A stretch of 64,000 nt of DNA. Source: Caldilineaceae bacterium (GTDB lineage: Bacteria > Chloroflexota > Anaerolineae > Caldilineales > Caldilineaceae). Location of the stretch: the NCBI GenBank assembly GCA_019637645.1, contig JAHBVH010000018.1, forward strand, positions 1 through 64,000, given 5' to 3'. Made by a program: the position numbers and the translations under genes. Of this stretch, positions 7,768-15,891 are shown piece by piece. Positions within the stretch are counted from its first letter, which is position 1. Every line of letters starts with the position of its first letter. The notes under the pieces are model-generated. The model saw nothing but the letters and a program-made list of their open reading frames with translations. It had not been told where the DNA came from and ran no database searches.

Positions 7768-8866
7768 ATGAGTGAATTAGCAGCGCGGTTTTCGCAGCTC
7801 TTAGCGCGCGTCGATGTCATTCGGGGGCGTCTTTGACATTGCTGGGAAAGAAGAAAACTTACAAAGTCTAGAGGCGGAATCCCAACAGTCCGATTTCTGG
7901 AATGATCAACAAGCGGCCCAAAAGAAGATGCAAGAAGTGAGCACCTTGCGCGAGATGGTCGAAGTTTGGAACACGCTCCACCGTCGCATTACCGATGCGC
8001 AAGAACTTTACGCACTGGCCGAAGATGACCCGGCCCTGCTTACCGAGCTTGAACAAGAAGCCACCGCGTTGGAAACCGAACTAGAAGAACGCGAAACTGC
8101 GCTCGCCCTAAGCGGCGAACACGATGCCGATCCTGCCATTCTCAGCATTCACGCGGGCGCGGGTGGCACCGAAGCACAGGATTGGGCCCAAATGCTCCTG
8201 CGTATGTACCTACGGTGGGCCGAGCGACGCCGATTCAAAACCTCGATCACCGATATGACAGAAGGGGAAGAAGCAGGCATCAAAAGCGTCACCATCGAGG
8301 TGAATGGCGCTTATGCCTATGGCTATCTCAAAGCGGAACGGGGCACCCACCGGCTGGTGCGCCTCAGCCCTTTCGATTCAAACAATCGCCGCCATACCAG
8401 CTTTGCCAAAGTCGAAGTCATGCCCGTCATCGACGAAGATATTGAAGTCGAGATCAATCCTAACGATATTGAAATCGAAGTCTTTTTGAGCAGTGGTGCG
8501 GGCGGCCAAAATGTGCAGAAAAACCAGACCGCCGTACGCATTCGCCACCTGCCCACGGGCATTATTGTCACTTCGCAGAATGAGCGCAGCCAAGGCCAAA
8601 ATCGGGAAATGGCGATGAAGGTCCTACGCGGGAAGCTCTATGAAATTGAGCAGGAAAAGCTCTTTGCGGAAAAGGCGCGCCTCAAAGGCCAGAATGTCGA
8701 TGCCAACTTTGGTAGCCAAATCCGCAGCTATGTCCTCCACCCCTACCAGATGGTCAAAGACCTCCGCACGGATGTGGAAACAGGTAATACCACGGCTGTC
8801 CTCGATGGCGAAATTGATATGTTCATTGAAGCCTGGCTTAAACAACAGGTCGGTGAGTTAGGATGA
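7768..8866 (+). CDS. prfB: Peptide chain release factor 2, expressed by programmed +1 frameshift
   Basis: Class I release factor that reads UAA and UGA. Translation starts at the ATG at 7768 (AGAAAGAGGA upstream), reads 22 codons, meets an in-frame TGA at 7834-7836, and must shift +1 to continue with Asp at 7835. The joined product is 365 aa, the normal length for RF2. In joined numbering the stop-recognition tripeptide SPF is at about 200-202 and the peptidyl-hydrolysis motif GGQ at about 245-247 (SSGAGGQNVQKN). Reading the coding region only from 7814, as a simple ORF call would, misses the true N-terminus. The frameshift makes RF2 synthesis self-regulated by RF2 activity at UGA. Confidence 0.96.
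7823..7837 (+). promoter_or_regulatory. RF2 programmed frameshift site
   Basis: GGGGG (7823-7827, Shine-Dalgarno-like stimulator), three bases, then CTT TGA C (7831-7837). This matches the conserved bacterial RF2 recoding site, including the stimulator spacing and the C after the stop codon. Slippage of the CTT-decoding tRNA puts GAC (Asp) in frame. Confidence 0.95.
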
Positions 8867-8982: not shown

Positions 8983-9024
8983 AAGCGGGGTTCGGTGAAT
9001 TTTTTCACTTGCCCTTTTCAGTAG

Positions 9025-9053
9025 TTGACAACAAACTTTACCTCCGCTATACT
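9025..9053 (+). promoter_or_regulatory. Consensus sigma-70 promoter of the ilv operon
   Basis: A perfect -35 TTGACA (9025-9030), an exact 17-base spacer, and -10 TATACT (9048-9053). Transcription would start near 9060, giving a leader of about 450 bases before ilvB that contains a Leu/Val/Ile-rich peptide and a terminator. Confidence 0.8.
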
Positions 9054-9115
9054 TGCATGGTATGATGTGCAGAATGCAATATAAGCTTTGTACAAATTGC
9101 CCTATGTAGGAAATT

Positions 9116-9241
9116 ATGAATAATTTTGCGCTTCTCTCAACCATCTCTGTTGCTGTTAGCGGTATCGTACGCATTCTTAGCGAGCTTCTGGTCGTAGTAC
9201 TTATTCGCCAGAAGCTATACTTGGTTGGAGAAGAGGCATAG
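9116..9241 (+). CDS. Branched-chain amino-acid-rich leader peptide (attenuator)
   Basis: A 41-codon ORF with ATG at 9116 and TAG at 9239-9241, preceded by TAGGAAATT. Nineteen of 41 residues are Leu, Ile or Val. They include the run LLVVVLI (codons 24-30, bases 9185-9205) and further clusters at LL (6-7), IV (17-18), IL (20-21) and LYLV. It has no similarity to a functional protein and lies between a consensus promoter and a terminator upstream of ilvB, so its role is to report charging of leucyl-, valyl- and isoleucyl-tRNA. It plays the part of ilvL/ivbL of enteric bacteria but is not recognisably homologous to them. Absent from simple gene lists because of its size. Confidence 0.82.
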   Translation: MNNFALLSTISVAVSGIVRILSELLVVVLIRQKLYLVGEEA

Positions 9242-9281
9242 ATCTAAGTGCCTTTTTGGTCACCGCAGACCCTTCCCAACC
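9223..9281 (+). promoter_or_regulatory. Antiterminator pairing of the ilv leader
   Basis: GGTTGG at 9223-9228 pairs with CCAACC at 9276-9281, GAAG at 9230-9233 with CTTC at 9272-9275, and GG at 9235-9236 with CC at 9270-9271, leaving two bulged A residues. This uses the 5' arm and loop of the terminator (9269-9281), so the two structures exclude each other. The upstream strand overlaps the last codons of the leader peptide: a ribosome at the stop codon would cover it, while one stalled in LLVVVLI would leave it free. Confidence 0.72.
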
Positions 9282-9298
9282 GGGAAGGGTTTTTTTTT
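9269..9298 (+). terminator. Intrinsic terminator of the ilv attenuator
   Basis: ACCCTTCCC (9269-9277), four-base loop AACC, GGGAAGGGT (9282-9290), then an uninterrupted run of eight more T (9291-9298). It is 28 bases after the leader-peptide stop and about 210 bases before ilvB, so it can only act on the ilv transcript. Confidence 0.9.
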
Positions 9299-9365
9299 AC
9301 CAATCGCAGCCGACTTCTAGCAACTGTTAAGAAGATTACCGCGACCGTAGGTTTCTGACCCTTTC

Positions 9366-9388
9366 GAGTCTTTGAGTCTTTGAGTCTT
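9366..9388. repeat. Short tandem repeat GAGTCTTT
   Basis: Nearly three copies of GAGTCTTT in the stretch between the attenuator and ilvB. No role is evident; the other bases of 9299-9510 show only the ilvB ribosome-binding site (AAGGGAGA before 9511). Confidence 0.5.
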
Positions 9389-9510
9389 CGATCATTGGCA
9401 GTGATTCAACAAGAGATGATAAAGTAAGATCCGGTAGAGCAAGGGATTCTGTTTCGCTTATATTGATGTCACAGCAAATACACTTTGGCTGATAGAAGGG
9501 AGATTGTAAG

Positions 9511-11304
9511 ATGAGGCAACAAACGAGCACGGCTACAACTCCAGCCAGGACCAGTGAACCACGCCAGATGACCGGTGCGCAGATGGTCTGGGAAGCACTC
9601 TACCTGGAGGGAGTGGATGTGATTTTCGGTCATCCTGGAGGTGCGATCCTGCCCACGTATGATGCGCTGGCCCGCTACGAGGCAGAAGGCAAAATCCACC
9701 ATGTGTTGGTGCGCCATGAACAGTGCGCGGCACATATGGCCGATGGGTATGCACGAGCAACCGGACGAGTGGGCGTCTGTATTGCCACGAGCGGCCCTGG
9801 CGCCACCAATCTGGTGACCGGCCTAGCCACTGCCCAAATGGATAGTATCCCCGTGGTGGCCATTACTGGACAGGTGCCGACTACCTTGTTGGGCACCGAT
9901 GCGTTTCAAGAATCGGATGTGGTGGGTGTGTCGCAGCCAATTGTGAAACACAATTATCTGGTCACCGATGTGCATGAACTCCCCTTGATCATGAAAGAAG
10001 CCTTCTACATTGCCCGTGAAGGGCGCCCCGGTGTTGTCTTGGTGGATATCTGTAAAGATGTACAGAATGCCACTGGCCTCTTCCGCTACGACTTCGATAT
10101 TGAACTCCCCGGCTTTGAACCTTGGCCAACCGTTGAAAAAGAAGCCATCATTAAAGCAGCCGAATTGATCAACCGCTCTGAGCGCCCTTTGATCTTGGCT
10201 GGTCATGGGATTCAAATTGCGGGGATGAACAAGGAATTGCTGGAGTTGGTGGAAAAAGCCGAGATTCCCGTTGTGACCACCTTGTTGGGTACGGGCAATA
10301 TTCCCGAGACCCATCCCCTGAGCCTGGGCATGGGTGGGATGCACGGCGAAGCCTATGCGAACCGGGCGATTCAAGCCTGTGATGTTTTGATCGCCATGGG
10401 GATGCGTTTCGACGACCGCATCACCGGGCGGCTGAACAGCTTTGCCAAGCAGGCCAAGGTGATTCATTTTGAGCTAGACAAGGCCGAGGTTGGCAAAAAT
10501 ATTGTGCCGGATGTGGCGGTGATCGGGGATCTCGCCGAAACGCTGCCCGCTTTGTTGCCCCTGATCGAGACACGCCGACACCAACTGTGGGCCCAAGAGA
10601 TCAACGAATGGCGCGGCGATACGACCGAGAGCGATATTTTGAATTTTGAAACGGACGAACTGATTCCGCCCTTTGTCATTCGCCAATTGTGGCATGCCAC
10701 CAAACGCGGGACCGAAAAACCACCCATTGTGGTCACCGATGTGGGCCAACATCAGATGTGGGAATGTCAATATTTCATCCATGAATATGCCGGGATGCTG
10801 CTCACAAGTGGGGGGTTAGGCACCATGGGCTTTGCCTTGCCAGCAGCCATTGGCGCGCAAATGGCCCACCGCGATCGGTTGGTTTGGGCTGTCGCTGGCG
10901 ATGGTGGTTTCCAAATGACCTTGCAAGAATTGGCCGTGCTCCAGCAAGAACGGCTACCGGTGAAAATCGCCATTATTAACAATGGCTTCCTGGGCATGGT
11001 ACGGCAATGGCAACAGTTTTTCTATGAAAAGCGCTACATGGGCACGCCGATTGTTTCACCCAATTATGTTAAATTGGCCGACGCCTATGGGATCCCGGCC
11101 CGTCTTGTGCGCAAACCAGACGAAGTGATTGCTGCTTTTGACGAAGCCAATCAAACACCTGGCCCTTTCCTCATTGATTTCCAAGTGAAGGAAGAAGTCA
11201 ATGTCTATCCGATGATCCCGCCGGGCAATGCCGTCAACGAAATGATCCGCCGCCCCAAAGTGGGTGTCATGCAGGGCTTTAGCGGCGTGGAACCGAGTTG
11301 GTAA
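9511..11304 (+). CDS. ilvB: Acetolactate synthase, large (catalytic) subunit
   Basis: TPP- and FAD-dependent acetohydroxyacid synthase; condenses pyruvate with pyruvate or 2-oxobutyrate, the first shared step of valine, leucine and isoleucine synthesis. The 597-aa protein has the TPP-activating Glu at E70 in [16 protein letters not shown], the SGPGATN motif near 92-98, the FAD region, and the C-terminal TPP-Mg site AGDGGFQM near 461-468 followed by [13 protein letters not shown] 20-residue Ser/Thr-rich N-terminus precedes the first domain. ATG at 9511 follows AAGGGAGATTGTAAG. It is the first structural gene after the attenuator and is followed by ilvN. Confidence 0.97.
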
Positions 11305-11384: not shown

Positions 11385-11957
11385 ATGAAACATACACTGA
11401 TTGCTTGGATGCGGGACAAGCCTGGCGTGCTCAGCCAGGTGGCCGGATTGTTGCGTAGGCGCAATTTTAATATTGACAGTCTCCAGGTTGGTCATAGCGA
11501 AATGCCGGGCATCAGCCGCATGACCTTTGTCGTCAATGGCGACGAACACATGACCGATCAAGTGATTAAGCAATTGCGTAAAGTCGTTGATGTGACCAGC
11601 GTCGACGATGTTACCGAACGCCCCACGATCATCCGCGAAATGGCCTTGATCCGTGTGCATACGACGAGCCAAAACCGTGCCGAAATTATCCAAATAGCCG
11701 ACATTTGCAAAGGCGAAATTGTGGATGTGACCTTGGACAGCATGGTTGTCCAAATTGTTGGTTCAGAGCAGCGCGTGGATGCCTTGATCGAACTCTTAGA
11801 AAATTTTGAAATCCAAGAGATGGTGCGCACCGGCCCGGTAGCCATGGCACGCGGTGGTGCCCATCGCCACCGACCCAGCATTGCCGGTTGGCGCGCCGTT
11901 GCCAATGGTCAGGGTAGTGTTGAGGAAGCCAAACGTTTTTCTACGGGCGGCGTATAA
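11385..11957 (+). CDS. ilvN: Acetolactate synthase, small (regulatory) subunit
   Basis: Regulatory partner of IlvB that carries valine feedback inhibition. The 190-aa protein begins [22 protein letters not shown], a typical ACT domain (about 2-75), followed by a second ACT-like half (about 80-160) and a 30-residue tail unlike the usual 160-170-aa members. I place the start at ATG 11385, with AAAGGA upstream; an upstream in-frame start at 11298 would overlap ilvB and add a 29-residue stretch not seen in the family. It follows ilvB by 80 bp and is surely in the same operon. Confidence 0.95.
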
Positions 11958-12001: not shown

Positions 12002-13675
<1,674 letters not shown>

Positions 13676-13990: not shown

Positions 13991-14098
13991 ATGGACGATG
14001 GTCTTGCTGCGCTTAGCCACAGCCAGCCTTCTTTGGACGATATGACAATCAATACGATTCAATCCATTTCATCACCCCTGCAAGGAGTTGCCCAATGA
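13991..14098 (+). CDS. Possible 35-codon ORF coupled to leuA
   Basis: ATG at 13991 has a strong ribosome-binding site (GGGGG, 8-base spacer), and its TGA (14096-14098) overlaps the leuA ATG (14095-14097) as ATGA. The product ([15 protein letters not shown] ...) resembles nothing I know, and it is not rich in leucine, so it is not an obvious attenuator peptide. It could couple translation into leuA or be chance debris of the toxin region. Confidence 0.3.
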
Positions 14099-15891
14099 CA
14101 ACGGCCCAGAACGGGACAGCCGCCAACGGCACTGCCCCTGTAACCGAAGAACCCGCCGTAGATGATGTCGATGTCACTCAGTTTGCGATCCACGACATCC
14201 GCGCCCATGCCCGCGCCATCGCCAACGGCAAGACGGTGGTCATCTTCGACACAACCCTGCGCGATGGCGAGCAAAGCCCCGGTGCCACCCTCAACACGCA
14301 AGAAAAACTAGATATTGCGCAACAATTAGCTCGCCTAGGCGTAGATATTATGGAAGCCGGTTTTCCGGCCGCCAGCCCTGGCGATCTCGAAGCGGTTAAA
14401 CTGATCGCCCATTCGGTAGGACGCCGGGCGCGCCAAGGGAGCGATGGCACCGTGATCGCGCCGCCGATTATTGCAGGGTTGGCGCGTGCCAATAAAAATG
14501 ATATTGATAAAGCCTGGGAAGCAGTCCAAGGCGCCGTACGCCCGCGCATCCACACCTTTCTGGCGACCAGCGACATTCACATGGAGCATAAGCTGCGCAT
14601 GAGCCGCGCCGATGTGCTGGAAACCGTGGGTGACATGGTGCAATATGCCAGTAGCCTCTGCCAAGATGTCGAGTTCAGCCCGGAAGATGCAGGACGCAGC
14701 GATCCCGATTTCTTGGTCCAAGTCTTGGAAGTGGCGATCAAGGCTGGGGCGACGACCCTCAACATTCCCGACACCGTGGGCTATACCACGCCAGAAGAGT
14801 ATGGTGCGCTGATTAGACACCTGCGCGACAATGTCCCCGGCGGCCAAGATGTGATCTTCAGCCTCCACTGTCATAATGACCTCGGCTTGGCTACGGCCAA
14901 CACCTTGGCGGGCATTCAAGCGGGCGCTCGCCAGATGGAAGTGACCATCAACGGCATTGGCGAACGGGCGGGCAATACCAGCTTGGAAGAGACCGTCATG
15001 GCACTCTATACGCGCAAGCCGGTCTTTGCGCTAGAGACGAACATTGTCACCCACGAAATCCACCGCACCAGTGACATGGTCAGCCGCTATACCGGCATTG
15101 TCATCCAGCCGAACAAGGCCATTGTCGGGGCCAATGCGTTTGCCCATGAAGCCGGGATTCACCAAGATGGCATGTTGAAAAATAAGCGTACCTATGAAAT
15201 TATGGACGCCTCGGCCATTGGGTTGAACCAAAGCAAGTTGGTTTTGGGCAAACACAGTGGGCGCAATGCGTTGCGCACCAAGTTAGAGGGGATGGGCTAT
15301 CATCTCGACAACGAAGAGTTGAAAGAGATCTTCAAACGCTTCAAAGAGTTGGCCGATAAGAAGAAGACCGTCACCGATGCCGATTTGGAAGCCTTGGTGG
15401 GTGACGAGATCTATCAACCGGTGGAGACATGGGAACTGCTCCAGTTGCAGGTCCAATGTGGCAACAATGTGATCCCGACGGCGGTTGTCACCCTGCGCAA
15501 TAACAAAACGGGTGAGGAGATCACCGAAGCGGGCTTTGGCACGGGGCCAGTGGATGCCGTCTACCAAGGGATCAACCGCATTATTCAGGTAGAGAATCAC
15601 CTGGCCGAATTTCTCGTCCAAGCGATCACCGAAGGCATGGATGCCAATGGCGATGTGACCATTCGGCTCGAGATGCCCGAGAGCCGCGGCTATAGCCAAA
15701 CGGCCCAGGGACGCATGCGCCGCCGCCTCTTCAGCGGGCGTGGCGTAGATACGGATATTATTGTTGCCAGTGCCAAAGCCTATATGCAAGCGCTTAATAA
15801 GATCCTGAGTACCCTCGATCAGGAAAGTTCTAGTGTGGATATTGCTGCCGACACGCAGCTACCAACGATGGCAGCACCAGTCACGGCCTAA
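14095..15891 (+). CDS. leuA: 2-isopropylmalate synthase
   Basis: Condenses acetyl-CoA with 2-oxoisovalerate, the committed step of leucine synthesis. The 598-aa protein starts with a 45-residue Ala/Thr-rich extension, then the catalytic TIM barrel with [13 protein letters not shown] at 51-63 and the metal-binding HCHNDLGLA near 258-266, and NGIGERAGN. The C-terminal part (about 435-580) is the leucine-binding regulatory domain. It is somewhat longer than the usual 510-560 aa because of the N-terminal extension. The start ATG 14095 follows CAAGGAG. A second, CimA-type homologue lies at 33389. Confidence 0.96.

Follow-up and report, generated by a model that had tools for sequence, protein, structure and literature searches.

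A predicted ribosome-mediated attenuator before ilvB in a Caldilineaceae bacterium and related elements in other Chloroflexota

The region between prfB and ilvB in the DNA analysed here (a stretch of 64,000 nucleotides, hereafter the window) very probably encodes a ribosome-mediated transcription attenuator of the ilvBNC(-leuA) genes that would sense charged Leu-, Ile- and Val-tRNA. Our data establish the parts of the element, their conservation, the covariation of both alternative stems, leaders that match the downstream pathway, a codon bias in these leaders and the position of the control codons. An ORF with a cluster of branched-chain codons, the putative leader, and an intrinsic terminator stand before the first gene of the operon; antiterminator and terminator are mutually exclusive, with covariation behind both. 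By the usual ribosome footprint a stalled ribosome would leave the antiterminator strand (strand 2) free, while a ribosome at the stop codon would cover it. The strongest argument for the sensing of charged tRNA is that the leader content matches the pathway.

Table 1. Features of the attenuator region and of the genes downstream of it (positions in the window)
Feature	Positions	Strand	Basis
Sigma-70-type promoter, TTGACA-17-TATACT	9025..9053	+	motif scan and reading of the sequence
Weak Shine-Dalgarno-like AGGA for the leader	9108..9111	+	reading of the sequence
Leader ORF, 41 codons, MNNFALLSTISVAVSGIVRILSELLVVVLIRQKLYLVGEEA	9116..9241	+	ORF scan; counterpart in 21/22 close ilvB loci
Strand 1, complementary to the antiterminator strand	9130..9143	+	MFE fold
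Hairpin A, enclosing the control codons	9183..9216 (9183-9191 with 9208-9216)	+	-15.9 kcal/mol
Control codons Leu-Leu-Val-Val-Val-Leu-Ile (LLVVVLI)	9185..9205	+	position relative to strand 2 conserved
Antiterminator strand (strand 2), GGTTGGAGAAGAGG	9223..9236	+	fold, covariation
Variable inner stem of the predicted antiterminator three-way junction	9234..9253	+	fold
Small inner helix GGTC/GACC of the predicted antiterminator junction	9258..9271	+	fold
Intrinsic terminator hairpin, 11 pairs	9267..9292	+	motif scan; covariation
Strand 3, CCCTTCCCAACC; common to antiterminator (with 9223-9236) and terminator (5' arm and loop)	9270..9281	+	
Terminator T run	9290..9298	+	reading of the sequence
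ilvB, acetolactate synthase large subunit	9511..11304	+	TIGR00118
ilvN, acetolactate synthase small subunit	11385..11957	+	TIGR00119; start inferred
ilvC-like ketol-acid reductoisomerase	12200..13675	+	TIGR00465; start inferred
leuA, 2-isopropylmalate synthase	14095..15891	+	

The promoter hexamers (TTGACA at 9025-9030 and TATACT at 9048-9053, 17 nt apart) match the consensus at 11 of 12 positions, and transcription would start near 9060. Promoters with at least 11/12 matches at most 140 nt from the leader start occur in 50 of 113 members of the family, the window included, and in none of the shuffles. This promoter, a 41-codon leader with 19 Leu, Ile or Val residues including LLVVVLI, a terminator with a T run, and an upstream strand (9223-9236) pairing with the 5' arm of that terminator (9270-9281) had all been picked out by the first-pass annotation, which was made from the letters of the window; each of them is where it was placed, the terminator with an 11-pair stem and the duplex with its A's bulged. 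The annotation had also given the leader a ribosome-binding site of its own, which stands in part: AGGA is present, but it is weak, and a Shine-Dalgarno-like 4-mer precedes the leader in only 33 of the 113 members and so is not general among relatives. Hairpin A and strand 1 were not in that annotation.

Downstream, the ilvC-like gene scores 204.7 bits on TIGR00465, under the cut-off of 226.15. A pattern scan of the forward strand between 13675 and 14095 found neither a promoter-like nor a terminator-like site, and leuA probably belongs to the ilvBNC transcription unit. The nearest IlvB relatives of the window (81% identity downward) come from metagenome genomes of Caldilineaceae and other Chloroflexota, which very probably places the host within Caldilineales or close to it; a plasmid similarity search with the window gave no match. 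On the other side of the attenuator region lies prfB, which apparently starts at ATG 7769 and within 7769-7840 has CTT TGA C closely preceded by a G-rich stretch, presumably the programmed +1 frameshift site typical of release factor 2 genes.

The leader RNA of the window folds better than chance (z -4.8, 0/200 shuffles). Strand 2 (GGTTGGAGAAGAGG) pairs with strand 3 (CCCTTCCCAACC), the stretch 9218-9283 folding at -25.8 kcal/mol (z -3.9), and antiterminator and terminator are each stable when their own stretch is folded alone. In a stepwise fold with the RNA before 9217 masked, which mimics a ribosome stalled with Ile 9203-9205 in its A site, the antiterminator is the MFE structure while the transcript ends at 9278-9286, and from 9289 onward the terminator replaces it. 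In the full-length RNA the antiterminator is the less stable of the two by 5.5 kcal/mol; the switch therefore has to be kinetic and set by which structure forms first, as in classical attenuators. Of 107 members whose pre-terminator transcript was folded as far as the terminator loop, 101 have strands 2 and 3 paired in the MFE structure. Hairpin A is likewise widespread: the 46 nt before strand 2 have a mean z of -2.9, with z < -1 in 107 of 113 leaders, and the hairpin usually stops some 6-7 nt short of strand 2, which it excludes. It resembles the pause hairpins that are part of classical attenuators and is possibly a pause hairpin for RNA polymerase. Two further candidates were rejected as features of the family. 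Strands 1 and 2 pair strongly in the window (-17.3 kcal/mol, z -4.8) but weakly across the 113 members (mean z -0.77; 27% below p 0.1), and a conserved inner stem was dropped, since no more than 45 of 107 members have an inner region with z < -1.

Conservation was followed in the best 80 of 201 candidate ilvB loci. Strand 2 and a terminator of the same type lie upstream of ilvB in all 22 close Chloroflexota loci of this set (L001-L021 and L025; IlvB identity 64-81%), and in 21 of them there is an intact ORF rich in Leu, Ile and Val, as expected of relatives by the first-pass annotation; the frame of L017 is not intact. In a 23rd locus, L022 (with its twin L124), leader, strand 2 and terminator stand before ilvD. 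RNA models spanning strand 2 to the T run were built from 23 sequences (R1) and 65 sequences (R2); neither matches any of the remaining 57 ilvB loci among the best 80, four of which have at most 12 nt before ilvB. These 57 include the distant Chloroflexota L035, L041 and L043, in which we found neither a model match nor a leader ORF rich in the three amino acids. Leader counts leave out L017, and also L086, which is near L002 and has a terminator stem mismatch; L081-L084, L087-L092, L094-L097 and L102 are second copies of earlier loci and add nothing to the counts, and L020 and L113 are one contig.

Both stems covary in relatives, which is what the first-pass annotation had proposed to look for; its idea survives both of the sequence comparisons by which it could have failed, that of leader ORFs and that of covariation. 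Alignment A5, of 95 rows, shows the antiterminator helix paired in 94.7% of cells and changes on both sides, in some sequence, for five of its six pairs; cells changed on both sides number 20 versus 2.7 in shuffles; sliding the register brings pairing down to 26-67%. The terminator is paired in 98.7% of cells, 98 of them changed on both sides versus 19.3 in shuffles. In the same alignment there is no excess of terminator pairs changed on both sides (6 versus 5.3 shuffled) or of further terminator pair types (16 versus 13.6 shuffled). A conserved strand 2 is indeed favoured by the RNA models; their structure, however, holds terminator pairs only and hence does not favour the antiterminator count. 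Computed duplexes of strands 2 and 3 are stronger for cognate than for swapped partners, at -16.5 versus -13.4 kcal/mol for 88 unique pairs and -14.9 versus -11.3 kcal/mol with one pair per strand-2 type (24 types), each with 0/20,000 permutations, and a smaller earlier set gave 0/20,000 for 45 pairs and 103/20,000 for 18 strand-2 types; these values, like the Fisher values below, take no account of shared ancestry. Weak 2:3 pairing is computed for five ilvB members (L136, L168, L189, L196 and L198), three of the four citramalate synthase members (L157, L162 and L193) and the livJ member L192. The terminator of L189 looks like a mis-detection, and in four of 113 members (L155, L161, L179 and L183) the automatic finder placed no terminator.

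An ORF with at least 9 Leu, Ile or Val per 12 residues is present at 101 of 126 loci (23 comprising the window and loci found via IlvB, and 103 found by the RNA models), compared with 0.65% of 4,000 random positions; in relatives the leader is roughly 20-46 codons long. The place of these residues is fixed with respect to strand 2. In 87 distinct ilv leaders they make up 0.93 of the residues at codon -9 and 0.97 at codon -8, counted back from strand 2, after which the fraction falls to 0.55, 0.31, 0.09 and 0.00 at codons -7, -6, -5 and -4, a profile that is alike when all 97 ilvB/ilvD leaders are counted. Codon -8 specifies one of the three in 84 of the 87 leaders, in nearly equal shares (29 Leu, 28 Ile, 27 Val), and any one of them suffices there; at codon -4 the count is 0/87. 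Rare codons, CTT and GTA, serve as control codons: at 16 Caldilineales-type loci Leu is written CTT in 56% of cases in leaders versus 6% in ilvB genes, and Val is written GTA in 65% versus 4%, the figures for all ilvB/ilvD leaders being 42% for CTT, 40% for GTA and 67% for ATT. Codons for Leu, Ile and Val in 36 Caldilineales-type leaders have a third-position GC of 0.37, the other codons one of 0.67, so that the bias is not a general A+T richness. Serine codons of leaders likewise differ from those of ilvB (p 1e-4), so a part of the bias is unrelated to the three amino acids. Control codons are argued, in the available part of PMC1183508, to be those whose reading rate responds most to amino acid supply; CTT and GTA would be candidates for such codons here.

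The front edge of a ribosome lies about 16 nt beyond the first base of the P-site codon. With this footprint, stalling at codon -8 would leave strand 2 free, and a ribosome at codon -4 would begin to cover it. The stop codon fits in 87 of 97 ilvB/ilvD leaders, 12 having it just before strand 2 and 75 having its end 10 to 31 nt beyond the base preceding strand 2; in the other 10 it ends at +34 or later, where a ribosome would leave strand 2 partly uncovered. The claim of the first-pass annotation that a stall in the control codons frees the antiterminator, and arrival at the stop codon covers it, thus agrees with the codon -8/-4 profile and the stop positions of relatives. Since the 3' arm of hairpin A lies in this stretch too, constraints from hairpin and ribosome may both act.

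Pausing, stalling, termination and regulation in the cell are what we infer, in the following form. Once transcription has begun, a ribosome would start the leader at 9116, and hairpin A may hold RNA polymerase until the arriving ribosome melts it. With ample charged tRNA the ribosome would reach the stop codon (9239-9241) and cover strand 2 (about 9222-9252); strand 3 would then form the terminator and transcription would end near 9298. When charged tRNA is scarce, the ribosome would stall within the control codons with its front edge near 9216, and the free strand 2 would capture the emerging strand 3 in the predicted three-way junction, letting the polymerase enter ilvB. If the leader is not translated, the 1:2 pairing seen in the window would favour termination.

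Leader composition tracks the downstream pathway. Before strand 2, leaders of ilvB and ilvD hold 661 Leu, 334 Ile and 374 Val, a mixed content, whereas the four leaders of citramalate synthase genes hold 36 Ile, 5 Val and 2 Leu (Fisher 1.5e-15 versus the ilv leaders, with the reservation on ancestry given above; two of the four are nearly identical and one, L193, is weak). Leu prevails before leuA and leuS: the single leuA leader has 8 Leu and no other residue of the three, the four leuS leaders have 17 Leu, 5 Val and 3 Ile, and the enrichment reaches p 0.002 with L144, a poor leader before leuS, kept among the counts. The leuS members (L144, L182, L191 and L195) share the layout of strand 2 and terminator with the ilvB members, and in L144 the pairing CGTCTGGGA/TCCCAGACG is present next to the poor leader.

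At E <= 0.001, R1 matches 66 and R2 113 of 396 genomes of the relatives' GTDB class (Anaerolineae). After inspection 105 of the 113 genomes were kept, about six of them borderline: G274, G278, G345 (leuS), G359 (livJ), G203 (weak 2:3 pairing) and G007 (L017). The eight without a credible member are G314, G067, G280, G374, G183, G291, G110 and G199. Excluded as non-members were the model hits L123, L135 (which we take to resemble a tRNA end), L142, L143, L121, L174, L175, L178, L184, L185, L194 and L197. R2 carries no gene information, and 46 of the 56 hits that followed it lie before branched-chain genes (ilvB, ilvD, citramalate synthase, leuA, leuS, ilvE or a branched-chain transporter); the other 10 are L158, L169 and L180, with good leaders, and seven excluded hits. 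In a search of the phylum 21 of 400 genomes matched, and none of the 10 outside the relatives' class has a leader rich in the three amino acids. In the control class (presumably Negativicutes, the class name for the group of L053) six hits in 5 of 150 genomes include none with a leader or with a relative of ilvBNCD, leuA or leuS; a model score of about 30-34 bits is therefore no proof by itself, and membership was decided from leader and gene. Searches over more than 40 genomes lose weak matches through stricter filters, so a missing match does not prove absence.

Several hits stand beside this set. L130, L139, L158, L169 and L180 have good leaders, strand 2 and terminator, but what lies directly downstream is no known branched-chain gene. 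Similar unknown ORFs of about 140 residues follow L130 and L139 and may be a new regulon member. L192 (leader MTKFIGIMVIIFIMWVLYYLYYGKAPVLGWENNG) precedes a branched-chain amino acid ABC transporter, livJ/livH-like and below NCBIfam cut-offs, and here the duplex test lends no support to 2:3 pairing. Four hits in another Chloroflexota class (L208, L227, L228 and L237) have leaders with aromatic runs (MKNNFAPKYYYYYYFGRIKVRLGESL in L208) before ORFs that on a look at their sequence resemble DAHP synthase, which suggests aromatic attenuators on a similar scaffold. Hits before pyrR-like genes, so named from their sequence (L220, L221, L223, L225 and L230), have terminators containing CTTGCC and are an unrelated attenuator type that partly shares the look of strand 2. 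L215, L224 and L232 carry a conserved short ORF (MFQGRFGYTFSFTQRTRVRLGRSNTN in L215) without a clear control amino acid, a matching strand 2 and terminator, and a downstream ORF resembling an AMP-binding ligase.

The leader might instead encode a functional small hydrophobic protein that happens to precede an ordinary terminator. The ORF is indeed hydrophobic and widely conserved, and its chosen start is ATG in 105 of 113 members, a figure to be taken with caution as ORF choice favoured ATG. This reading is nevertheless very improbable given that Leu, Ile and Val interchange at a single position (codon -8, as counted above), that the type of residue follows the downstream pathway and that the strands covary; moreover, among the 12 leaders whose stop precedes strand 2, 11 keep GGTTGG (10 of them one close group), so this stretch is conserved as RNA.

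Competition between terminator and antiterminator is common to T-boxes and riboswitches, which precede ilv and leuS genes in other phyla, so that binding of a tRNA or ligand could control the terminator and the ORF be incidental. We consider this highly unlikely: no Rfam family matched the window at gathering level, 16 loci with diverse members gave only tRNA genes (in L182), and conservation of sequence falls mainly on strand 2 and the terminator, the upstream part being coding with interchangeable Leu, Ile and Val codons. A scheme without termination, by translational coupling, re-initiation or a hidden ribosome-binding site of ilvB, finds a parallel in the re-initiation at leader peptides proposed in the accessible part of PMC4833913. 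It is extremely improbable here, as the leader stop lies 270 nt upstream of ilvB in the window with a T-run terminator between them, and covariation falls on this terminator and its competitor. Attenuation by a translating ribosome remains the preferred reading.

The attenuators of trp, his, leu, ilvGMEDA and ilvBN in enteric bacteria share with the element a leader peptide with control codons, competing antiterminator and terminator, and a T run. In them strand 2 is shared through 1:2 pairing; here, in contrast, hairpin A encloses the control codons without strand 2, and 1:2 pairing is not generally conserved. They differ also in that no Rfam leader family (Leu, His, Thr, Trp, Phe etc.) matched here at gathering score, nor did the T-box. 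Two leader families found below threshold in 9000-9520 (E 0.09 and 0.2; Phe_leader 24.2 bits versus 55) were judged chance matches. Rare control codons have a counterpart in the CUA codons of the leu leader, according to the part of PMC1183508 available. A short ORF with Ile, Val and Leu codons and a terminator also precede ilvB in actinobacteria, as in the Corynebacterium ilvB-II leaders (available parts of PMC1262725 and PMC10272879); as far as these sources go, that ORF usually has 15-17 codons versus 41 here, belongs to another phylum and occurs once per genome at ilvB, while the Chloroflexota scaffold is found also before ilvD, citramalate synthase, leuA, leuS and ilvE.

The ilvB-OMG and Leptospira ilvB motifs are, in the accessible text of PMC10272879, suspected leader-ORF attenuators rich in branched-chain codons; they are described as rich in Thr codons too, a difference from our family. 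The same text reports ilvB-OMG from various phyla and suggests wider leader-peptide use at ilvB; a link to the Chloroflexota family is possible. According to the available part of PMC2965389, leader peptides were known only in Proteobacteria and Actinobacteria before terminator screens added histidine leader peptides of Firmicutes, which resemble our case in lying outside these two phyla and differ in amino acid and phylum; the strings 'Chloroflex', 'Dehalococc' and 'Roseiflexus' are absent from its main text. Our searches of the open-licence literature on leader peptides and attenuation in Chloroflexota turned up no described attenuator, in line with the first-pass annotation, which knew of no such case. 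The kind of attenuation is thus known and the Chloroflexota family apparently undescribed; a common mechanism does not place the element in any named RNA family.

On balance we lean towards the view that Chloroflexota possess a large, undescribed family of homologous attenuators built on one scaffold (a control-codon hairpin, a GGTTGG-type strand 2 and a terminator), in which specificity is set by codon swaps in the hairpin and the pause hairpin is separate from strand 2. The codon sets would be Leu, Ile and Val before ilvB, ilvD and ilvE, Ile before citramalate synthase, Leu before leuA and leuS, and perhaps Tyr/Phe before DAHP synthase in another class. Such a family, present in about a hundred sampled genomes, would extend leader-peptide attenuation to the Chloroflexota. 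With its covarying alternative stems and pathway-dependent leader content it makes a natural test set for the effect of control-codon choice (rare CTT and GTA here) and of ribosome geometry on how sensitive attenuation is. Hints of gene function follow as well, namely the amino acid to which a given gene responds, in a group for which metagenome genomes are here almost the only source.
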